The notes beneath the pieces were generated by a model, which saw nothing but the letters and a program-made list of their open reading frames with translations, ran no database searches and had not been told where the DNA came from. The translations under genes were made by a program, and so were the position numbers. This document shows positions 41,595 to 51,845 of a stretch of 64,000 bases of DNA, in pieces. Origin of the DNA: Sulfurimonas xiamenensis (GTDB lineage Bacteria > Campylobacterota > Campylobacteria > Campylobacterales > Sulfurimonadaceae); NCBI RefSeq assembly GCF_009258045.1, contig NZ_CP041166.1:1-64000 (forward strand). The letters run 5' to 3'. Each line of letters begins with the position of its first letter. The first letter of the stretch is position 1.

Positions 41595-41918
41595 CTACTT
41601 TATAAAACTCTTCTTGATTTTCTCTATTTCATCTATGATTAGGCGGTATTTTTCTACATAAGGGGAGTTTATATGTTCAATCAAATCTCTGTACTTCAAG
41701 TAGTTATTCCAAACTTTTTTAGAGGCTTCTATTCTATTTTTTTTGTGAAGCTCAAAGCAGACGGAAGCGTTGATAAATCCTTTGAGAAGCCTTACTTCAT
41801 CAGAGTCTTCGAACCTTCTCTCAAACCACAGAACCTCTAAATCTTCATGAGCATTGTAAAAGTTCTCGCTTCGCAGGTTTTTTATAAAGCTCTCTAGCTG
41901 TTTTTTATGTCTGCTCAT
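41595..41918 (-). CDS. DUF309 family protein
   Basis: The 107-residue helical protein carries the DUF309 motif FYNAHEDLEVLWFE, with the HE pair, then LLKGFINASVCFELHKKNR. The family has no firm function; a metal or nucleotide role has been suggested by its His/Glu/Trp core. Its start overlaps the rhodanese-like gene by 14 bp, making it the last gene of the zinc-uptake operon. Confidence 0.82.
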   Translation of the reverse strand: MSRHKKQLESFIKNLRSENFYNAHEDLEVLWFERRFEDSDEVRLLKGFINASVCFELHKKNRIEASKKVWNNYLKYRDLIEHINSPYVEKYRLIIDEIEKIKKSFIK

Positions 41919-42234
41919 CAGAAACCGTCATGTTCTTGCGCCAATATCCTCTTCCTCCATGAAGCGAAATGCAGTGATGTTTTGGAAACTTTTTTTTGTA
42001 CTCTTCAAGTCTGTTAAGGGTTGCCTTTCCGGTGTCGCAATAAAATACAAAAACGCTTCCTTGCGGCTCCTCTTTTAGCTCAAAAGGGTTATAGATGAGA
42101 GTATCCGCATTTTCAATCGGTGAGAGAATAGTATCTATCAGCAATACTTTTACCCCCTCTGCTTCAAGCTTTTTTTTATTTTCTAAAAACTCTTTTTGCG
42201 TCCATTCGTTTGGAAATTTCATATTAACTTTCAT
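41905..42234 (-). CDS. Rhodanese-like domain protein
   Basis: The 109-residue protein fits a single rhodanese domain: VFVFYCDTGKATLNRLEEY holds a Cys in a CxxGxxT loop at the place of the active-site loop, and HCISLHGGRGYWRK resembles the closing strand-turn (LxGGxxxW). Its N-terminal half is divergent, so the family call is moderate. A sulfurtransferase role cannot be shown. It overlaps the permease gene by 11 bp and DUF309 by 14 bp. Confidence 0.65.
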   Translation of the reverse strand: MKVNMKFPNEWTQKEFLENKKKLEAEGVKVLLIDTILSPIENADTLIYNPFELKEEPQGSVFVFYCDTGKATLNRLEEYKKKFPKHHCISLHGGRGYWRKNMTVSDEQT

Positions 42235-42973
42235 ATGCTTTTTTTGATGTTACTAAAACTGCAACCGCGGTTAAAAATGCGCCTAAAAAAACGATGCCAT
42301 AGCCGGTCGGCAAGTCATAAAAATATGATAGTATAATCGCGCTTATACTAAAAAACCATCCAAAAAAGAAACTTCCGAGTAAAGGTTTTTTAAAGTTTAG
42401 TGAGAGTGCTACAAACGGCGGTGCAATAAGAAGCACAAAAACGACAAAAACTCCTGCAAGTGAAACAGATGAGGTGACGGTAATGGCAAGAAGCGAAAAG
42501 AATAGAAGCTCTTTTAAAAAGCCGCTGAGTTTCGGGTAGATAAAGTAGAGTCCAAGAGCGATAAATGCGTATATAACTCCGCTTTTTGCAACTTCAATGG
42601 GAGGAGTAAAGAGTATATCGCTGGCAAGCAGAGACTTGAAGTGCTCCATCCCCTCTGCAGAGTGGGAGAGAACCATCATGATGCCGCTTGCACCTAAAAC
42701 ATAAAGTATTCCGATAAACGCCTCTAAATGGAGTTTGCGCGTAGAAGCAAATGCTATAAGAAATGCACTCAAAAGAGCAAAACTAAGCGTTAGGAGGTAG
42801 AAATATTCTTCATGAAAATAGCCAAGACTTATAGATGAGCCAAGAGCTGCAAACTGCGCAATTGCAAGGTCGGTAAAGATGATACCGCGCTTTAATATCT
42901 CCATCCCGAAATAGGAGTGAAGCATCACCAGAATAATAACAAGAGCAATTGGTACAAGAAGAATATCTGTCAT
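42224..42973 (-). CDS. Metal ABC transporter permease, ZnuB-like
   Basis: The 249-residue integral membrane protein has about 7-8 helices with the ABC-3 family features: MEILKRGIIFTDLAIAQFAALG near the start and SVSLAGVFVVFVLLIAPPFVALSL in the second half. It should form the channel for zinc (or manganese) brought by the binding protein encoded directly upstream, with a 4-bp overlap. No ATPase gene (znuC) occurs in this operon or the rest of the window, so it must come from elsewhere. Confidence 0.88.
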   Translation of the reverse strand: MTDILLVPIALVIILVMLHSYFGMEILKRGIIFTDLAIAQFAALGSSISLGYFHEEYFYLLTLSFALLSAFLIAFASTRKLHLEAFIGILYVLGASGIMMVLSHSAEGMEHFKSLLASDILFTPPIEVAKSGVIYAFIALGLYFIYPKLSGFLKELLFFSLLAITVTSSVSLAGVFVVFVLLIAPPFVALSLNFKKPLLGSFFFGWFFSISAIILSYFYDLPTGYGIVFLGAFLTAVAVLVTSKKAYES

Positions 42974-43848
42974 TTTATTGCACTTGTTAGATGATCAAAA
43001 AGCGCACTTAAGCTGTTTATGTTGTCCAGCGCTTCTATATCATGCGGCATTAAAACTATATTTATGCCTGTTTTTTGGCTTATAAAATCTGCTGTTTTTG
43101 TTGAGTGATAAACATCATGGAGTATGCAGCAAGGATTCTCTTTTTTTATAAGCTCAATCGTTTCTATGGTATGTCTTGATGAGGGAGGAATACCGGGAAG
43201 AGGCTCGATAGTGCCTATATTTATAAGTCCGTAGGCTTTGTTAAAGTAAGCTAAATTGTCATGAAATTGGATAACCTTTAAGCCTTTTTTATCGCTCATT
43301 TTTTGGCTCCACTCACTCATCTTTTGGTTCCACATCTTAGAAAAATCAGCATAGTTTTTTTCGTAAACCTCATAGTGTTTTTTATCTATAGAGATTAAAA
43401 AATTTTTTATGGTCTGTGCCAAAAACAGAATGTTTTGCGGGCTTAGATGAAAGTGCGGATTGCCATCGGGATGAATGTCGCCGTCTTTTCTATCTACTTC
43501 GCTTGGCTTGTTTATAAGCTCTATATGATGGGAAAGATTTAAAAATGTTGCAGAGGAGGGTGAAGTTTTTGGATTCCCCGCACGGTTTATAAGTGGAGGC
43601 AGCCAGCCGATCTCAAGCTGAGCTCCGTTCATGATAAGTGCATCGGCATTTCTCACTTTTGTAATAAGCGAAGGACGGGGAATAATAAAGTGCGGATCCC
43701 AGTTTCCCTTTGCCAAAACAGTAGTCGTAATATGCTCCCCGCCTATTGTTTTAGTAAGCGCCCCTATATAAGGGTAGCTTACCGCTATATTTAGATGAGC
43801 TAAGAGTGTTAGCGGCAGAAGCGTTAGCAGTGTTAGTAGTTTTTTCAT
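42970..43848 (-). CDS. Zinc ABC transporter substrate-binding protein, ZnuA-like
   Basis: A signal peptide (about 1-16) leads the 292-residue cluster A-I binding protein. Likely metal His ligands are in NWDPHFIIPRPS, GNPHFHLSPQN and IQFHDNLAYFNKAYG, with a final acidic ligand near the DIEALDNINSL region. The His-rich acidic loop of ZnuA is short here (DGDIHPDGNPHFH). It captures Zn2+ in the periplasm for the permease. The ATG lies 2 bp after the outer-membrane protein stop, and the gene overlaps the permease by 4 bp. Confidence 0.88.
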   Translation of the reverse strand: MKKLLTLLTLLPLTLLAHLNIAVSYPYIGALTKTIGGEHITTTVLAKGNWDPHFIIPRPSLITKVRNADALIMNGAQLEIGWLPPLINRAGNPKTSPSSATFLNLSHHIELINKPSEVDRKDGDIHPDGNPHFHLSPQNILFLAQTIKNFLISIDKKHYEVYEKNYADFSKMWNQKMSEWSQKMSDKKGLKVIQFHDNLAYFNKAYGLINIGTIEPLPGIPPSSRHTIETIELIKKENPCCILHDVYHSTKTADFISQKTGINIVLMPHDIEALDNINSLSALFDHLTSAIK

Positions 43849-43850
43849 GC

Positions 43851-45125
43851 TTAAAAACTATGTGCCGCGTGTGCGCCGATAGAGATATTTGCTTGAAGAA
43901 TGAGAGTGTCGATTTTTTCTCTTTGACCATCTTCATTAAACATAGAGTTGTCGCGGCTGTACTGCAGTCTAAATCTTGCAAACTCGCTTGTATGGTACTC
44001 TACCATCGCTGTGTATTTGTCGAGCCCGTCTGGCTGTGGTTTATCTATATTGTCCGCTGTAACATCATTTTTTAATATTGCATCGTATCTAACACCCATT
44101 CTCCAGTTTTTATTGTGTGTGTAGATAAGCTGTGAGTAGAGACCGCTCTGTTTTTTATTGATATGAGGGGAGGTAAATGTGCCGTATAGATTGTACTGTG
44201 TACCGTCTAGCTCTCTTTGAAGATACTCTGTCTGCCACTTGATAGATTTGTAAGAGTCAATAGCATGCAAAACAACCAAATCGGCACCGTAAAGTTTTGA
44301 GTCGCCGCTAAACACATGTGGAGCTTCATGATCGCTGCTGTGATCTATCATTGAATCACCTTGAGCATAAGAAATTCCACCGAGCAAGGTTGTGTTGTCT
44401 ATATCATGAGAAGCTTTTATATATCCAATGTAAAGTGAAGGTGCAGAAGTTCCCTCTATTTTATCTTCTTCTATAGTTGTGAATTCTTCTATATCAACTG
44501 ATTCATTGCCGAACATCTGTTCGTTTTCTCCTTGAAGCACTTCAAATCCTGCCATAAGGTAAAAAGGAGTCGGAGCAGTCCACTGAATTTGCGCACCTGT
44601 TTCATTTATACCGTGCATTCCTAAAAATGCCTCATATACTAAAGGCATATCTGCAAAATCCCATGCATGGTGGTGTTGCTCATTTAGATAACCAAAGTTT
44701 GAGTTAAATTTTCCGCCTTTTACTTTTGTGCCGTGTCCTAAAGCGTTAGATGTAAAGTATAGCTCCTCTATCTCAACACCATTTTCTGAAAAGTGAAATA
44801 CGCCATCCACCGTAAAAAATGGATCAGCGCTGCTTGAGAGCACAAGCTCTGCATAATTGAGGTTAAATCCGTTTTTTGCATTGTAAGTGGCATGTTCCGA
44901 ATCTCCGTGAGAGTGCTCTCCCAAAAGGCCGTGGGCAATACCTGGAAGCTCTAAATGGGGCGCCTCGTCATCTTTTACACTTCTATCAACATATGAAGCG
45001 TCTAAGACCAAAGAGATATCTGGAATGAATTTTGACTGATCAAATGTTCTTTTTTCAACAGGAAGCACATCTGCCCCATAAACCAATGTTGCGCAGAGTA
45101 CGCTTGATAATACTATTTTTTTCAT
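43851..45125 (-). CDS. Zinc-linked outer-membrane porin-like protein
   Basis: The 424-residue protein has a signal peptide (about 1-17), a His/Asp/Glu-rich early segment (HGLLGEHSHGDSEHATYN) and beta strands through to the end, SIGAHAAHSF with a terminal Phe. GGKFNSNFGYLNEQHHHAWD is a second His cluster. This fits the zinc-regulated outer-membrane proteins often found next to znu genes; it is not a TonB receptor, since no plug domain is seen. AGGAT precedes the ATG. It heads the operon with the binding protein 2 bp downstream. Zinc-dependent regulation is expected but no Zur site was recognised. Confidence 0.78.
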   Translation of the reverse strand: MKKIVLSSVLCATLVYGADVLPVEKRTFDQSKFIPDISLVLDASYVDRSVKDDEAPHLELPGIAHGLLGEHSHGDSEHATYNAKNGFNLNYAELVLSSSADPFFTVDGVFHFSENGVEIEELYFTSNALGHGTKVKGGKFNSNFGYLNEQHHHAWDFADMPLVYEAFLGMHGINETGAQIQWTAPTPFYLMAGFEVLQGENEQMFGNESVDIEEFTTIEEDKIEGTSAPSLYIGYIKASHDIDNTTLLGGISYAQGDSMIDHSSDHEAPHVFSGDSKLYGADLVVLHAIDSYKSIKWQTEYLQRELDGTQYNLYGTFTSPHINKKQSGLYSQLIYTHNKNWRMGVRYDAILKNDVTADNIDKPQPDGLDKYTAMVEYHTSEFARFRLQYSRDNSMFNEDGQREKIDTLILQANISIGAHAAHSF

Positions 45126-45185
45126 AATTTTCTATCCTAATTATTTATAATTTTTTATTTTTGTAAGATTTTTTATTTTATTTTT

Positions 45186-45458
45186 TTAAGTTATGATAGT
45201 AGATGGAGGAGCGCGGTTTTGGTTTGAGTTTATTTTGGTAAATATATAAGAAAGCAGATTGTTTTGTGTGATTTTTTCAAAGTGAAAAAGTTCGATATCT
45301 GTTAATAATTGAACTGAATCGTCAGAAATTAAATTTTGGCTTACCGTACATATAAGACATGACGCGCTGTCGTTATGCTGAATGTGTTCCACTTCATGAA
45401 CAGCGGCAAAGCTTGTGACAACAGCAAAAAGTAGAGATATAAGTATATTTAATTTCAT
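45186..45458 (-). CDS. Small secreted His/Cys protein, HEVEH/NRAPP family (copy A)
   Basis: The 90-residue product has a signal peptide (about 1-18) followed by HEVEHIQHNDSASCLICTVS, a cluster of His, Glu, Asp and a CxxC pair. Near the end are the string NQNRAPP and a short tail. It is a clear paralogue of the protein at 51561-51827 and resembles DUF2946-type small proteins in its layout. It lies 60 bp upstream of the zinc porin operon. A periplasmic metal sensor or chaperone is a reasonable guess. The start is the ATG at 45458, seven bases after TAAAAT and without a ribosome site. Confidence 0.72.
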   Translation of the reverse strand: MKLNILISLLFAVVTSFAAVHEVEHIQHNDSASCLICTVSQNLISDDSVQLLTDIELFHFEKITQNNLLSYIFTKINSNQNRAPPSTIIT

Positions 45459-45463
45459 CGACA

Positions 45464-45476
45464 AAATTTTATCATA
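45464..45476 (-). promoter_or_regulatory. 13-bp motif shared upstream of both small HEVEH genes
   Basis: TATGATAAAATTT (minus strand) is identical to 51833-51845 at the same place before the other copy. The TAAAAT part lies seven bases before the ATG and could be a -10 element. On the minus strand GATAATTTTATC lies just upstream. Confidence 0.5.
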
Positions 45477-45521
45477 TTTTTGATAAAATTATCAAATTTT
45501 TATATATATTAAAAAATTATA

Positions 45522-46022
45522 TTACTCAAATTTTTTAATGCTCTTATACTTGGAACCTTCGGGGGATAGGCAGTTTTGCATAAGTTCTAAAGTCGTTTCA
45601 ATTTTTCCTATTTTCCTATTTTTATATCTATTTAAAACCTCTTTAAAAGCTTTAGTGTCATCTATTTTTTTCATTCTCATCAGTGTTACATGGGGAGTAA
45701 ACGATGCAGTTGATTTTAGTGGAAAAAGAGTGCAAAGAGATGCATGAAGTTTATCGAGTGCATAGCCTTCAGGTTTAGCATAAAGTATTTTGTTATGAGA
45801 AAAAAAGTCTAAAGATGTCAGAGCTGAAGGTTGTGTTTTTTCGATAGAACGGGGCAGCATGTTTAATAGTTCTTCAATAGTATATATAGTCCCAAAATAA
45901 CAAATTGTTACATGCAAATCTTCATCTCTAGCCCATTTACCTTTTATAATGCCAGAAAATTCTGATTTTAAAGTATCGTAATCATCAAGTTTTGCTTTTA
46001 CAGCCAAAAATAGAGTATTCAT
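45522..46022 (-). CDS. thpR: 2H phosphoesterase, ThpR/2'-5' RNA ligase-like
   Basis: The 166-residue protein has the paired HxT motifs of the 2H phosphoesterase family, HVTICYFG and HVTLMRM, and the typical N-terminus MNTLFLAVKAK. Such enzymes act as RNA 2',3'-cyclic phosphodiesterases. I use the ATG at 46022; a longer frame upstream would run into the divergent gene. TATACT ends seven bases before this ATG and there is no ribosome site, so a leaderless mRNA is predicted. The divergent Mut7-C gene begins 52 bp away with the same arrangement. Confidence 0.85.
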   Translation of the reverse strand: MNTLFLAVKAKLDDYDTLKSEFSGIIKGKWARDEDLHVTICYFGTIYTIEELLNMLPRSIEKTQPSALTSLDFFSHNKILYAKPEGYALDKLHASLCTLFPLKSTASFTPHVTLMRMKKIDDTKAFKEVLNRYKNRKIGKIETTLELMQNCLSPEGSKYKSIKKFE

Positions 46023-46029
46023 AAGAATA

Positions 46030-46067
46030 AGTATAGCATAGTCTGCCGGATTGAGATAGGGTATAAT
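46030..46067. promoter_or_regulatory. Divergent promoters for thpR and the Mut7-C gene
   Basis: On the minus strand TATACT (46030-46035) lies seven bases from the thpR ATG. On the plus strand TATAAT (46062-46067) lies six bases from the Mut7-C ATG. The two hexamers are 26 bp apart, so polymerases would compete. Confidence 0.5.
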
Positions 46068-46073
46068 ATTTGT

Positions 46074-46532
46074 ATGAAAATAGAAAATCCGCCTAAGTTT
46101 ATCGCTGATTGTCATCTTGGAAAACTTACAAAATATCTTAGAATAATGGGTTTTGATACGCTCTATTTTAATACGATTGACGATAATGATCTTATTGAAC
46201 TTGCAAATAGTGAGGATAGGATTATTTTAACGCGTGATAAAGGATTGCATGAACGAACGAAAGCGCCGACTTTTTATCTTGATGCAATAGATAATTTAAA
46301 ACAGCTTCAAGAACTTCAAAGAGAGTTTGGAATAAAAGATTACTCTCTTGTACCCCGCTGCATTGTATGTAATACAGAGTTGCAAAAAGTGCAAAAAAGT
46401 GACATTGAAGCGCAGCTTCCGCCAAAAGTAAAAAAGTATTTTTCAGAGTTTGAAATATGCCCTACATGCAAACGCATATATTGGCATGGGGACCATTACA
46501 AAAGAATGATAGCTACTATTGATTCTATTTAG
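46074..46532 (+). CDS. Mut7-C RNase-fold protein with zinc ribbon
   Basis: The 152-residue protein has a PIN-like N-terminal part (KFIADCHLGKLTKYLRIMGFD with acidic residues D13 and DRIILTRDKGL) and a C-terminal zinc ribbon (CIVCNTE and CPTCKRIYWHGDHY). This is the Mut7-C family, thought to be an RNase. It is divergent from thpR, another RNA-end enzyme, which suggests shared RNA-repair roles (inference). Its -10 element lies six bases before the ATG and no ribosome site is present. Confidence 0.85.
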   Translation: MKIENPPKFIADCHLGKLTKYLRIMGFDTLYFNTIDDNDLIELANSEDRIILTRDKGLHERTKAPTFYLDAIDNLKQLQELQREFGIKDYSLVPRCIVCNTELQKVQKSDIEAQLPPKVKKYFSEFEICPTCKRIYWHGDHYKRMIATIDSI

Positions 46533-46597
46533 AGGATATAGTTTAAATTAAGCTAATACGCATTATCATATGAGTTATTGAAATTAAAGGATTTAAG

Positions 46598-46744
46598 ATG
46601 GTTGATAAGAAAAAAGTTAAAAAAATTGTAAAAAAAGAGCTTAATGCTATGCTCAAAAAAGAGCTCAAACAAGAGATTAAAAAAAATATAAAAGATTTTA
46701 AAAAGAAAGAAAAAGCAGAAAAAAGTTCTAAGAAAAAAAAGTAA
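46598..46744 (+). CDS. Lysine-rich 48-residue small protein
   Basis: This short frame encodes 48 residues, 22 of them Lys, starting MVDKKKVKKIVKKEL. The spaced Ile, Val, Leu and Phe residues between Lys/Glu pairs give a long amphipathic helix. AAAGGATTTAAG supplies a good ribosome site. The stop is followed by AGAGGTG and the P-type ATPase 36 bp later. It may be a nucleic-acid- or membrane-associated peptide. I do not know a family. The codon start, ribosome site and clean frame make it a likely real gene. Confidence 0.65.
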   Translation: MVDKKKVKKIVKKELNAMLKKELKQEIKKNIKDFKKKEKAEKSSKKKK

Positions 46745-46779
46745 AGAGGTGTGTTTACCTTTTTTATAAATAGTATTTT

Positions 46780-49362
46780 ATGTTTCACACAAAAAGCATA
46801 GAAGAGACTCTTGAAGATTTAGAGTGTAGTGTTGATGGCCTCAGCAAAGAAGAGGCTCGCTCTCGTACAAAGCATTATGGAAAAAATGTTTTAGCAGAGG
46901 GTAAAAAACGCACCCTGCTTAATATATTTATTGAGCAGTTTAAGAGTCCTGTTATCTATGTTTTACTTATAGCTACTGTTATATCGCTGGTCATCAAGGA
47001 GTTTAGTGATGCCGGTTTTATTATGGCGGCACTTCTCGTGAACGCCGTAGTCGGAACTTATCAAGAGTATAATGCCGGCGAGAGAGCTGACGCTCTGAAA
47101 AAAGTAATCAAGACTTATGCAAATGTCTTAAGAGATGGCAAAAAAGTTGAGATACTAAGCGAAGATGTCACTCTCGGCGATATAGTATTTTTCGAATCAG
47201 GTGTAAAAGTTCCTGCTGATATACGCCTTATAGAAGCAAATGATCTGCAAGTAAACGAATCGCTTCTTACCGGCGAATCTATCGAAGTAAGTAAAAATCC
47301 GCAATATATATCCAAAGATGAAAATGAACCAATAGGCGAGAGAAAAAACATGCTCTATGGCGGCTCTTTAGTTACAAAAGGGCGGGCAATCGGAGTTGTG
47401 GTGGCAATAGCCGAGATGACGGAAGTCGGTAAAATAGCCTCTCTTTTAGCAGAGGTAAAGATTGCAAAACCACCGCTAATGCTGCGCATGGAGAAGTTCT
47501 CTTTCAACATTTCCAAAATCATAAGCGGTGTCGCGCTGCTTATCATTATGCTCGGCGTTTATCAGGATATGCCGCTAAAAGATATCTTTTTCCTCACAGT
47601 AGCTCTTGCGGTATCTGCTATTCCGGAGGGGCTCCCCGTTGCTATTACAGTTGCACTGAGCGTCGCAAGCAGTGTTATGAGTAAGAGAAATGTCATTGTA
47701 CGCAAGCTATCTGCTATTGAGGGGCTTGGTTCATGTACATTTATAGCAAGCGACAAGACCGGAACGATGACGCAAAACCGCCTAAGCGTTGAGCACTTTA
47801 TCAGTCCCGATAAAACATATAACAGCAGTGAGGCAGTAGATGAGCATGTAGTTCTGAGTGCTCTTTTGTGTAATGAGTCAACTCATCGAAAAGAGGGTGA
47901 TGAGTTTGTTTTCTTAGGCGATCAGGTAGATATAGCTTTAGCTAGGTATGCACTTGCTATTAATGAGACTCTTGTTAAAAAGTATGAAAAAGCAAAAGCA
48001 ATCGCACTAACTCCTTATGAACCGGTCAATAAGTATTCAGCAGCAAGTTATGAGATTGAGGGCAAAAAAGTTGATTTTATCAAAGGCTCACCGGAGGTTA
48101 TACTTGCAAAAAGCACACTTGGCGAGGATGAAAAAGAGTACACTTTAAAACAGGTTGATGAGTGGGCTGCTAACGGATTTAGAAATATAGCTTTGGCATA
48201 CAGAATTAACGATAATAGCGCTATTGCGGAGGATGGATACACCTATCTTGGATTTGCAGCTATAACAGATCCTCTTAGAGAAGGGGTCAAAGAGGCTCTT
48301 CGCACTGCAGAAGAGGCGGGAATTGAAGTAGTTATGGTAACGGGTGATCATCCAAACACCGCATTTTATATAGCAAGAGAACTCGGCATCGCCATAAGCA
48401 AAGATGAGATAATAGACGGAGTGGCAATCGCTCATTGGATGGAGCGTGGAGCGCCAAAAGAGGAGATTGCTCATAAGCGTGTTTTTGCGAGAGTTTCTCC
48501 TCAGCAAAAACAGCTTATAGTAAAAACATTTCAAGAACTCGGTCACTTTGTGGCAGTTACGGGAGACGGTGTCAATGACGCGCCTGCACTCAAGTTTGCA
48601 AACATCGGTATAGCTATGGGTAAAAGCGGTACAGATGTTGCGCGCGAATCAAGCGACCTGATACTAACGGATGACCACTTCGGCTCCATCGTAAACGGTG
48701 TAGAAGAGGGGCGCGTAGCGTATGACAATATCCGCAAAGTCATCCATCTTCTTATAGCTACAGGATTTGCCGAGATAGTGCTTGTGCTTCTCTCAATCAT
48801 ATTTTTTATACCTATTCCGCTTCTGCCTGTGCAGATACTCTGGCTTAACCTTGTTGCAAACGGCATACAAGATGTAGCACTGGCTGTGGAAAAAGCGGAA
48901 CCCGGAGTGCTAAAACGCAAGCCGCGCGATCCCAAAGAGCCTATATTTAACAAAACCATGATTAGCAGAGTAGTTGTAGGCGGTTTATACATGGGCATCT
49001 CGGCATTTGCTCTTTTTTATACGCTGCTTGAGTTTGGATATCAAGAGGAAGCGGCAAGAAATATTACACTGCTTATGATGGTGCTCTTTGAGAATGTACA
49101 TACTTTTAATTCACGCAGTGAAAACAGCTCCATCTTTAAAATCAATCATGCCAGAAATATGCTTTTATGGATATCTGTTATCTCTGCACAGGGTATTCAT
49201 ATGATAGCTATGTATACACCTTTTATGCAGCCTATACTTAGCGTTGAGCCGGTTAGTTTGCAAATGTGGGCGACACTCCTTTTTATAGCTTTAACACTCA
49301 CGGTGGTTATGGAGTTAGAGAAATTTTTCAGAGTCAAATTAACAGCGTCTAAAAGCTGTTAA
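46780..49362 (+). CDS. P-type cation-transporting ATPase (P2, Ca2+/Na+-like)
   Basis: The 860-residue pump has the P-type order: an N-terminal cation-ATPase domain (DLECSVDGLSKEEARSRTKH), the actuator motif LLTGESIEV, the M4 PEGLP motif (VSAIPEGLPVAI), the phosphorylated Asp in SDKTGTMTQN, KGSPE in the nucleotide domain and VTGDGVNDAPALK. PEGLP and length fit P2 ATPases (SERCA/PMA1-like), so Ca2+ or a related cation is likely. It follows the lysine-rich small gene and is convergent with the TonB receptor gene 4 bp away. There is no clear ribosome site at the ATG. Confidence 0.92.
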   Translation: MFHTKSIEETLEDLECSVDGLSKEEARSRTKHYGKNVLAEGKKRTLLNIFIEQFKSPVIYVLLIATVISLVIKEFSDAGFIMAALLVNAVVGTYQEYNAGERADALKKVIKTYANVLRDGKKVEILSEDVTLGDIVFFESGVKVPADIRLIEANDLQVNESLLTGESIEVSKNPQYISKDENEPIGERKNMLYGGSLVTKGRAIGVVVAIAEMTEVGKIASLLAEVKIAKPPLMLRMEKFSFNISKIISGVALLIIMLGVYQDMPLKDIFFLTVALAVSAIPEGLPVAITVALSVASSVMSKRNVIVRKLSAIEGLGSCTFIASDKTGTMTQNRLSVEHFISPDKTYNSSEAVDEHVVLSALLCNESTHRKEGDEFVFLGDQVDIALARYALAINETLVKKYEKAKAIALTPYEPVNKYSAASYEIEGKKVDFIKGSPEVILAKSTLGEDEKEYTLKQVDEWAANGFRNIALAYRINDNSAIAEDGYTYLGFAAITDPLREGVKEALRTAEEAGIEVVMVTGDHPNTAFYIARELGIAISKDEIIDGVAIAHWMERGAPKEEIAHKRVFARVSPQQKQLIVKTFQELGHFVAVTGDGVNDAPALKFANIGIAMGKSGTDVARESSDLILTDDHFGSIVNGVEEGRVAYDNIRKVIHLLIATGFAEIVLVLLSIIFFIPIPLLPVQILWLNLVANGIQDVALAVEKAEPGVLKRKPRDPKEPIFNKTMISRVVVGGLYMGISAFALFYTLLEFGYQEEAARNITLLMMVLFENVHTFNSRSENSSIFKINHARNMLLWISVISAQGIHMIAMYTPFMQPILSVEPVSLQMWATLLFIALTLTVVMELEKFFRVKLTASKSC

Positions 49363-49366
49363 TTTT

Positions 49367-51505
49367 TCAACTCTCAAAAGGCACTCTAAGGGAAAATGAG
49401 ATATTTCTTCCCATGCCAAGAGCATATCCTTTGTATGTGTCTAAAAAGTCTCTATACTCTTTATCAAAGAGATTGGATATTTTGATGCTCAATTGTGGCT
49501 TATATTCAAATATATCAATATCAGATGTGTATCCAACTCCCCATAATGAGTAGCTTTGTGTATCGGCTGTTCCAAATGGAGTGTTGTTGTACTGCGCAAA
49601 TGGTTCATATGCGCCACCTACTTGCTGATCATCAATATATTTATAATCTATAAAGAGAGTTGAGTTTTGCATCGCTCCTAAATTTCCAAGATTTTGATAA
49701 ATTGCCAGTTTTAGGTTGTTTGCAGGAATGAGAGGCAGACTTCTATCGTTTTTCGTGTCACGCCCCTTTATAACCTCAAAAGTTCCCGTTGCGCGTGTTT
49801 TATCGCTTAGCATTGTATCAACTGAAAACTCAATACCTTGCATTGTCGCATCAGTCTGCTCATTTTTCATCTCAGGAAGTGTCATGCTCCCAACCGTTAC
49901 GCTATTTCCGGTATTTTGCAAAAAGATATAGTTGTCTATATAGGTATGATAGAGAGCTATGCTTGCTTTTGTCTTTTCATCTTTATATCGCAGCGCTATA
50001 TCAGCGCCCATACTTATCTCCTCTTCAAGGTTTGGGTTTCCAAGCTGATATGCTTGTACGCCTCCGTGAACCCCGCCCGCATAGAGCTCAAAAATGCTAG
50101 GCGCCCGAAAACCTCTGCTTATATTTACCGCGATATTGAAGTTTGTGTTAAGCTTGTATGTGGCTCCTATAGATCCCGCAATGGCAGAAAATTTTTTGCT
50201 GTTGTTTGACGCATCAAAGATACCGCTGGCAACAAAAGGTGCATTATTTCCATCTGTTGGCGCATTTATCTCGATTTTGCTGTATCTTAGGCCGCCTTGA
50301 AAAATCCACTCTCCAATATCCGCCTCTTCAAAAATATAGAGCCCTAAACCTTTCTCTTTTGCGCTTGGTGAGAGTTTTCCGCTCTTTAGCGTTTGATCTT
50401 TATCATATCCCTCTATGCCTATTTCACCATCAAAAATGGAAAATATCGGATGTATAAAAGCTAGTTTTGCATCTGTTCTATCTACATTTAAATCAACATA
50501 CGCATTTGTTCCTTTTACGCTCTCCATAATCTCATACGGTGTATTTGTAGCTGCTTCTCTGGTGTTGATGGTGTGGGATATCATCGGTTTTATAATCCAC
50601 TCGCCCGCAAAAATTTCGGCTTTTAGCTGTGTTTCATTGTTAGAGAGATCCTGTCCCGCGGAGGATACAGGAGTTAAATCAGGTAGATGCCCTAAAAAGT
50701 TCTGGTAACTTTGCCAATAGGTGTGCCCAAGCGATACTTCACCCCACTCATCTCTATATCCCAGAGCTATATATGCCGATGTGTTTTCAAAGTTTGTATA
50801 GGGGAGTTCACCTGAGAAAAGCGGAAGCGTACCGGCAGGATCTCCGCTTTTATAGGTAGGGCTTGAAGCTGTTTTATAATTGTCGGCTTCTCTTTTTGAG
50901 ACTCCTACATTAAGACCAAACTTACCTTTTGCCATTTGTGCTTTTACGCTGCTCATCCACTCATTGTTGTTTGTGTTGTATTCACCGGCTAGTTCGCCTT
51001 TATACACTACGGAATCATCTGATGTGGAAAGTAGTTCCGGCGACAGTACATTTACGACTCCTCCTAGAGCGTCAGAGCCGTAAAGAACTCCTTGTGCACC
51101 GCGGATAACTTCTATATTTTGAGCGAAAAACGGATCAATGTTTGCCAAATGGCGGATTCCGTAAGTTTGAAAATCTGTAGCACTGCCGTTTGAGACTATT
51201 TTTACTCTCTCTCCGCTCATGCCGCGAATCACCGGTTTGCCCGATTGAGAACCTGTAGCAATGTTATTTACTCCCGGAATGTCTTCTAAAATTTTTCCAA
51301 GAGAAGCAGTAGATTTTTTTGTTATTTCATTGGAGCTAATAGCATCTATTTGAGCAGGAACTTCAAAAGTTTCATGTTCGTGAATAGGTGAAGCGGACAC
51401 GGTAAGCGCGTCTAAAGAGATAGATTGTGTATCACTGCTGTCTGCATATAGAGATATTGCTGAGAATAAAGCAAGTAGCAGCGAGTTGTGTAAAGTTTTA
51501 TGCAT
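49367..51505 (-). CDS. TonB-dependent outer-membrane receptor, metal-type
   Basis: The 712-residue receptor has a signal peptide (about 1-21), a TonB-box-like stretch (LDALTVSASP), and a plug domain with LGKILEDIPGVNNI, SGKPVIRGMSGERVKIVSNG and GVLYGSDALGGVVNV. The barrel ends NISFSLRVPFES. The motif set (RGMSG, GSDALGG) is that of ZnuD/BtuB-like receptors, and the SPIHEHETFEVPAQ segment has local His residues. Zinc or copper complexes are plausible. GGAT lies before the ATG. A small HEVEH protein gene is directly upstream, 56 bp away, the same pattern as at 45 kb. Confidence 0.86.
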   Translation of the reverse strand: MHKTLHNSLLLALFSAISLYADSSDTQSISLDALTVSASPIHEHETFEVPAQIDAISSNEITKKSTASLGKILEDIPGVNNIATGSQSGKPVIRGMSGERVKIVSNGSATDFQTYGIRHLANIDPFFAQNIEVIRGAQGVLYGSDALGGVVNVLSPELLSTSDDSVVYKGELAGEYNTNNNEWMSSVKAQMAKGKFGLNVGVSKREADNYKTASSPTYKSGDPAGTLPLFSGELPYTNFENTSAYIALGYRDEWGEVSLGHTYWQSYQNFLGHLPDLTPVSSAGQDLSNNETQLKAEIFAGEWIIKPMISHTINTREAATNTPYEIMESVKGTNAYVDLNVDRTDAKLAFIHPIFSIFDGEIGIEGYDKDQTLKSGKLSPSAKEKGLGLYIFEEADIGEWIFQGGLRYSKIEINAPTDGNNAPFVASGIFDASNNSKKFSAIAGSIGATYKLNTNFNIAVNISRGFRAPSIFELYAGGVHGGVQAYQLGNPNLEEEISMGADIALRYKDEKTKASIALYHTYIDNYIFLQNTGNSVTVGSMTLPEMKNEQTDATMQGIEFSVDTMLSDKTRATGTFEVIKGRDTKNDRSLPLIPANNLKLAIYQNLGNLGAMQNSTLFIDYKYIDDQQVGGAYEPFAQYNNTPFGTADTQSYSLWGVGYTSDIDIFEYKPQLSIKISNLFDKEYRDFLDTYKGYALGMGRNISFSLRVPFES

Positions 51506-51560
51506 ATTTTTATCCTAAAATATATATTTTTAATTTTTTGTGCTGATAATTTTTTTTGTT

Positions 51561-51827
51561 TTAGGATATTTTAGGAGGTGCGCGGTTTTGATATGTTGCT
51601 GTTTTTATATATAAATAGGAGAGAAGAGTGTTTTGTATAATTTTTTCAAAATGAAAAACTTCTATCTCCGCAGCAAATTCAACAGCATCTGCAGACACCA
51701 GATTTTGACTTACTGTACATATAAAGCATGAAGAGTCATCATGATGCTTTATATGCTCTACTTCATGTATAGAAGCAAAACTCGCGGCAATAAAAAAGAG
51801 CAGAGATAGAATTAGATGCAGTTTCAT
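51561..51827 (-). CDS. Small secreted His/Cys protein, HEVEH/NRAPP family (copy B)
   Basis: The 88-residue paralogue of copy A has a signal peptide (about 1-18), the cluster HEVEHIKHHDDSSCFICTVS, and QNRAPPK at the end. Most conserved between the copies are HEVEHI, the CxICTVSQNL string, FHFEKI and NRAPP. Here the His count is higher (KHHDD). It starts 20 bp after ppsA and 56 bp before the TonB receptor gene. The identical 13-bp motif lies before its ATG, and there is no ribosome site. A linked metal-uptake role is inferred. Confidence 0.72.
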   Translation of the reverse strand: MKLHLILSLLFFIAASFASIHEVEHIKHHDDSSCFICTVSQNLVSADAVEFAAEIEVFHFEKIIQNTLLSYLYIKTATYQNRAPPKIS

Positions 51828-51832
51828 TAGTG

Positions 51833-51845
51833 AAATTTTATCATA
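51833..51845 (-). promoter_or_regulatory. 13-bp motif shared with the copy A gene
   Basis: TATGATAAAATTT on the minus strand, same distance to the ATG as at 45464-45476. TAAAAT may serve as a -10 element directly at the gene start. Confidence 0.5.

Follow-up and report, generated by a model that had tools for sequence, protein, structure and literature searches.

The closest described counterparts of the loci considered here are short upstream open reading frames (uORFs) whose translation controls the gene that follows. CruR (bp2923) of Bordetella pertussis, a member of DUF2946 (PF11162), is a copper-responsive uORF located before a TonB receptor gene (PMC9426467), and its arrest at an RAPP motif has been demonstrated in vitro by toeprinting (PMC12992588). 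Its authors pointed out that no riboswitch was known for Cu or Zn, and that CruR was the first uORF to respond to a transition metal (PMC9426467). CutF of Rhodobacter capsulatus also senses copper; it is an exported chain with a Cys metal site and, about 45 residues further on, a Pro motif at the C terminus that differs from the RAPP of CruR, and a stem-loop hides the Shine-Dalgarno (SD) sequence of the next gene (PMC9973294). SecM, ApdA/ApdP, and uDF likewise use RAPP or RAGP arrest, with the stalled ribosome opening a hairpin over the next SD, but these peptides monitor protein export and are followed by sec or yidC genes (PMC10951233, PMC10987492). Precedents exist for RAPP uORFs ahead of TonB receptors and of copper genes (PMC9426467, PMC9973294, PMC12992588), and their mechanism has so far been worked out only for copper. 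Control of znuABC and znuD in other Gram-negative bacteria relies instead on the DNA-binding repressor Zur. Here, we studied two uORFs, P1 and P2, in the first 64,000 nucleotides (nt) of contig NZ_CP041166.1 of Sulfurimonas xiamenensis (assembly GCF_009258045.1; hereafter the window), both of which, like the motifs, -10 boxes, hairpin arms, and operon genes placed by coordinate below, lie on the minus strand.

An initial annotation of this stretch had singled out two paired small proteins with shared sequence strings, and both frames were recovered: P1 at 45186-45458 (90 residues) and P2 at 51561-51827 (88 residues). They are paralogs with 60% identity, each ahead of an outer-membrane gene, and have in common a signal peptide, HEVEHIxHxD, CxICTVSQNL, FHFEKI, and NRAPP. 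The CxxC motif is CLIC in P1 (45348-45359) and CFIC in P2 (51717-51728), and in both it stands 44 residues from RAPP, the predicted arrest motif (45204-45215 in P1; 51573-51584 in P2). After RAPP, P2 ends in the three-residue tail KIS and P1 in the five-residue tail STIIT. No third copy was found in the whole genome (1.92 Mb, one contig). We consider it probable that P1 and P2 act as leader peptides with metal-responsive translation arrest, of the RAPP type represented by CruR and CutF. The layout, the spacing, the position of the promoter, a hairpin with covariation, and the neighboring genes can be read directly from the sequence, and it is from these that we infer arrest, metal binding, release on metal, zinc as the metal, and the direction of the response.

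The likeness to CruR extends over the whole peptide: a signal peptide, a CxxC motif, a spacer of 45 residues (44-46 here), and RAPP three residues from the end. Further, P1 and P2 each stand first in an operon for metal uptake or homeostasis, P2 before a TonB receptor as CruR is, and the uptake gene is expected to be on at low metal. CruR differs in its copper response, its 45-nt 5' leader, its 162-nt intergenic region, and its use of Rho-dependent termination, whereas the uORFs described here have a leaderless start, a gap to the next gene of mostly 45-62 nt (60 and 55 nt for P1 and P2, so that the long intergenic region of CruR does not occur in the window), an SD-masking hairpin, and zinc-type genes downstream. 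The initial annotation had likened the layout to DUF2946-type proteins and described the role of that class as not settled. The likeness in layout holds, and the role is already settled in part through CruR (PMC9426467) and CutF (PMC9973294); however, P1 and P2 reach no Pfam or NCBIfam cut-off, that of DUF2946 included, and because of this we do not file them as members of the family but only as working like CruR.

A search with a single sequence detected the family in 39 genomes out of 397 taken from the phylum, and a scan of public genomes, also with one sequence, returned only two loci, one of them in Sulfurimonas crateris. With a profile built from 25 members, the family was found in 51 of 397 genomes from the phylum and, within the taxonomic family, in 158 of 228. 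Eighty loci were fetched, one of which lacked a usable start, so that 79 relatives and the two window copies gave 81 uORFs for comparison. Every one encodes a short protein, exported by prediction in nearly all cases (signal peptide present), that has RAPP, or the closely similar NAPP, RSPP, TAPP, or QAPP, at its end, with RAPP itself in most; the tail after PP is three residues long in 73 of them. The distance from CxxC to RAPP is 44 residues in 50 members, 45 in 11, and 46 in 14 (44-46 in 75 of 81), and 42-43 in four. Two to six His residues occur in the 18 positions preceding CxxC in all members that have the motif. An alignment of 80 rows is invariant at H21, C34, P84, and P85 and nearly so at C37 (at least 90%), R82, and A83. 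The Pfam family most often matched by the relatives is DUF2946 (24 of 80, best E 1.3e-5), which suggests a remote but objective connection for the wider family. The class of leaders is wider than the profile: L130 and L137, two RAPP uORFs at a greater distance that have only one Cys (CSVYVL), head a porin-like gene (in genome G310) and a tandem TonB operon (G506), respectively, and the end of the uORF is again complementary to the SD.

The start of these uORFs has features of its own. The initial annotation reported that a 13-bp motif is identical at both genes and directly precedes each ATG. The 13-mer TATGATAAAATTT does occur exactly twice in the window (45464-45476 and 51833-51845; 0.01 expected by chance), and its 3' end lies 5 nt from the ATG at both uORFs, somewhat short of a direct junction. 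Within it, TAAAAT forms a predicted -10 box 7 nt before the ATG of P1 (45466-45471) and of P2 (51835-51840). A TAnAAT box 5-8 nt (usually 7) ahead of the start is found at 64 of 81 uORFs compared with 16 of 358 downstream genes, where the choice of uORF start favored this box; taking only the first in-frame ATG still leaves 55 of 81. Conversely, an SD-like sequence precedes just 4 of 81 uORFs but 74 of 79 first downstream genes. In Campylobacter jejuni, TAnAaT before an ATG with no SD has been mapped as the arrangement of leaderless mRNAs by differential RNA sequencing (PMC3847290), and because the arrangement here is the same, we take an extended promoter -10 element, rather than a metal operator, to be the best reading of the 13-bp motif. 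The uORFs are thereby predicted to be leaderless, with transcription starting at or beside the ATG. We reject a reading of the motif as a Fur or Zur operator in view of the fixed distance of 7 nt (5-8) to the ATG across divergent relatives and of the fit to TAnAAT, although an operator overlapping the -10 box could still exist. About 60 nt upstream of the RSPP uORF of genome G326 (L127) there is a leaderless-looking frame of 10 codons, and its stop overlaps the uORF start (ATGA).

At the other end of the uORF, inspection by eye shows that the terminal sequence TATCCTAA is complementary to the SD of the following gene, TTAGGATA. Mean duplex energy is -9.35 kcal/mol for native pairs and -6.75 kcal/mol when partners are swapped between loci (z = -11.6, 0 of 5000). 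The effect persists among representatives, with z = -9.4 for 37 sequences below 60% identity and z = -8.0 for 18 below 45% (0 of 20,000), and fades when upstream segments of the same uORFs are used in place of the end (z = -3.1 at a displacement of 24 nt, -1.8 at 48 nt, and +0.6 at 72 and 96 nt). With the stop codon and the SD as anchors for aligning the arms, 72.3% of cells pair, compared with 28%-47% when the register is slid. Covariation scores 0.146, whereas shuffles give 0.098 (standard deviation 0.011; 0 of 500) and slid registers 0.044-0.080; the 49 loci behind this count exclude duplicates and most loci in another register and are therefore biased toward structure, a selection of which the swap test is free. 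By contrast, a MAFFT alignment of whole intergenic regions analyzed with RNAalifold yielded no structure, because gaps misplaced the hairpin arms. Even the stop codon takes part: UAA is matched by UUA in the SD arm, UGA by UCA (L107, L112, and L113), and UAG by CUA (L127). TCC encodes the C-terminal Ser in 52 of 68 cases, compared with 7% of Ser codons in neighboring genes, and the uORFs stop with 77 TAA, 4 TGA, and 0 TAG compared with 170, 92, and 86. In P2 the hairpin is clear (z = -3.06 relative to shuffles). Its 5' side (51559-51576) contains the arm UCCUAAAAUAU (51566-51576) and, in the register conserved by the family, UAUCCUAAAA (51559-51568), which includes the Ser codon and the stop; the 3' arm AUAUUUUAGGAUA (51511-51523) contains the SD, AGGA (51513-51516), of the TonB receptor gene. 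With a ribosome placed on the RAPP prolines, the computed probability of an unpaired SD goes from 0.09 up to 0.49 (68 loci). Pairing of the last uORF codons and stop with the next SD, with its strong covariation, is a feature new to this work, and it would place the family with SecM and CutF in having an SD-masking hairpin.

These results bear on what the peptides do. The initial annotation took the product to be a secreted metal-binding or sensing protein, and periplasmic metal-binding or chaperone proteins acting in trans would indeed account for the signal peptide and the conserved His and Cys residues. They would leave without a role the constraint that acts on the nucleotides of the final codons and stop, in concert with the next SD, as they would the RAPP at the extreme C terminus and the invariable place of the uORF at the head of the operon; moreover, complementation in trans failed for CruR and CutF, neither of which was detected as a protein (PMC9426467, PMC9973294). 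We therefore regard an action in trans as very improbable. The RAPP end, the fixed spacing from CxxC, the leaderless start, and the covarying hairpin together favor a leader that arrests translation in cis. Such a leader could in principle serve as an export monitor of the SecM kind, with translocation pulling the chain and setting downstream expression irrespective of metal. The signal peptide in nearly all members and the RAPP peptides that regulate Sec and YidC genes (PMC10987492, PMC10951233) are consistent with this, but no sec, yidC, or secDF gene follows, the neighbors are uptake genes, and H21 and C34 are conserved, with C37 at no less than 90%, all of which makes export monitoring improbable.

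A metal response is suggested by the genes downstream. As the initial annotation had stated, one copy precedes a porin/ATP-binding cassette (ABC) operon and the other a TonB receptor. P1 is followed by a His-rich outer-membrane porin of 424 residues (43851-45125), a ZnuA-type zinc-binding protein (42970-43848; PF01297, E 7e-42), and a ZnuB-type ABC-3 permease (42224-42973; PF00950). The best solved relatives of this ZnuA are zinc-binding proteins, and its three His ligands align with theirs. P2 is followed by a TonB-dependent receptor of 712 residues (49367-51505), for which the closest solved structure is ZnuD (4rdr; E 2.7e-23 over the first 207 residues). The putative targets are the same as those of Zur elsewhere, namely, ZnuA, ZnuB, and a ZnuD-type receptor. 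A single Fur-family gene was found in this genome, and its sequence is Fur-like. Reuse of a metal-linked module ahead of separate uptake genes is borne out across the 81 uORFs: the first gene is the same porin in 68 (66 by clustering, with L094 and L095 added by reading the sequence) and a TonB receptor in three. Homologs do not lie mostly beside non-metal genes, and the remaining 10 uORFs precede outer-membrane genes of other kinds, most of them barrel-like (in eight a second barrel-like protein, in two another small one). The complete order porin-ZnuA-ZnuB was present in 60 loci within the stretch read. Two close orthologs of the receptor in the genus follow divergent RSPP or RAPP uORFs, L127 in G326 and L137 in G506, where the receptor is the second of the tandem.

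From the downstream ZnuA, the ZnuD-like receptor, and the single Fur-family gene of this genome, zinc is most likely the metal sensed. The same arrest uORF could respond to copper, as CruR and CutF do, or to another metal, with the porin and ZnuAB reflecting broader metal uptake. The CxxC of CruR and of CutF-like proteins is a copper motif, the wider family connects to DUF2946, and one subgroup (L069, L076, L077, L080, and L081) has an extra Cys ahead of a barrel gene. A porin, usually followed by ZnuA-ZnuB, nonetheless heads the list of first genes, ZnuA is closest to zinc-binding proteins and retains its three His ligands, the receptor has ZnuD as its best solved match, and two to six His accompany every CxxC pair, so we judge copper or another metal to be unlikely. 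In that subgroup the barrel-like gene encodes 340 residues and is followed in four of five cases by a 149-residue gene (ybeY in L076); L069 and L076 have CLVC..SCGD with the extra Cys, and the metal of the subgroup may differ.

If this reading is right, the first ribosome would load on the leaderless 5' end, with transcription starting at or next to the ATG, and the nascent chain would present a signal peptide and then an HExEH...CxxC metal site. With the ribosome at RAPP, about 47 residues past the second Cys, the metal site would be just out of the exit tunnel. At low metal the ribosome would be held at the two prolines and cover the last uORF codons, leaving the next SD free, so that the porin, ZnuA, and ZnuB or the TonB receptor would be made. 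Once the HExEH/CxxC chain has bound metal, in all likelihood Zn(II), the stall would be relieved, the ribosome would terminate at the stop and depart, and the uORF end would pair with the SD, turning the uptake genes off. That metal releases the ribosome, as opposed to holding it, is our choice of direction: a cell short of metal needs its uptake genes expressed, and CruR follows the same logic.

Several observations weigh against this scheme. At P1 there is only a weak remnant of the hairpin (45132-45199), in which CUAUC (45195-45199) pairs with GAUAG (45132-45136) over the porin SD, AGGA (45135-45138), and which is no better than shuffled sequence (z = +1.24). The P1 frame extends two codons beyond the usual end, giving the tail STIIT in place of xxS, and the arm TATCATAA replaces TATCCTAA (45186-45209); with the tail shifted and the arm changed, the SD mask is nearly lost, though RAPP, CxxC, and the -10 box are retained, and P1 may be leaky or may depend on something else. 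CruR acts via Rho and responds to Cu but hardly to Zn (PMC9426467), and the direction in CutF is opposite, metal prolonging the stall and turning a detoxifying oxidase on (PMC9973294). Among the 81 uORFs, two (L075 and L097) lack an intact CxxC, and most members fall below the DUF2946 cut-off of Pfam. Finally, other uORF genomes that were checked have one Fur-family gene in four cases and two to five in most, and the absence of Zur is thus not general among carriers.

The weakness of the hairpin at P1, where all other features are retained, would fit an arrest that governs Rho-dependent termination in the leader, as in CruR, instead of or besides SD masking. The intergenic loop (59% A, 15% C, and 1% G) is an unstructured stretch with more C than G that could serve as a Rho utilization (rut) site, and because it is nearly free of G and has 15% C, such termination could act too. 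The gap is, however, much shorter than the 162 nt of CruR, and a covarying hairpin is superfluous in a Rho model; we judge control through Rho to be unlikely. Within the near-G-free loop, about 25-35 nt past the stop, an element CTTTACAAAAAT or ATTATTACAAA recurs (for example, in L076:2768-2829, L043, and window 45126-45185), for which a rut site, a hidden promoter, or a standby site are candidate roles.

The surroundings of the two operons offer further detail. No ATPase (znuC) gene adjoins ZnuA-ZnuB at 41595-43848, where the next genes are one of DUF309 and one that weakly resembles rhodanese. Between the two uORF operons (46780-49362) lie a calcium-type P-type ATPase and small genes. In several relatives the porin uORF adjoins a gene of about 800 residues, perhaps the phosphoenolpyruvate synthase that flanks P2; if it is the same gene, this would suggest local duplication and rearrangement.

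A zinc-responsive arrest leader or uORF was not found in the literature searched, where coverage of subscription journals is thin; the words zinc and Znu are absent from PMC12992588 and zinc from PMC9973294, and the data sets of the earlier RAPP, CruR, and CutF papers may contain some of the present sequences. To a broader proposal we would give an even chance: that in many Campylobacterota the zinc sensor for zinc uptake is a nascent polypeptide and not a DNA-binding Zur repressor, encoded by RAPP uORFs that start without a leader and whose stop codon also serves as the anti-SD strand of a covarying switch hairpin. If the zinc version is true, metal sensing by a nascent chain would cover one more metal and one more phylum, and the control of zinc uptake would be accounted for in a genome in which only one Fur-family gene was found. 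Covariation involving all three stop codons would record selection on an arrest leader with unusual clarity, and it predicts which point mutations to test. The leaderless start would add a further twist, as the regulatory ribosome would load directly on the 5' end of the message.

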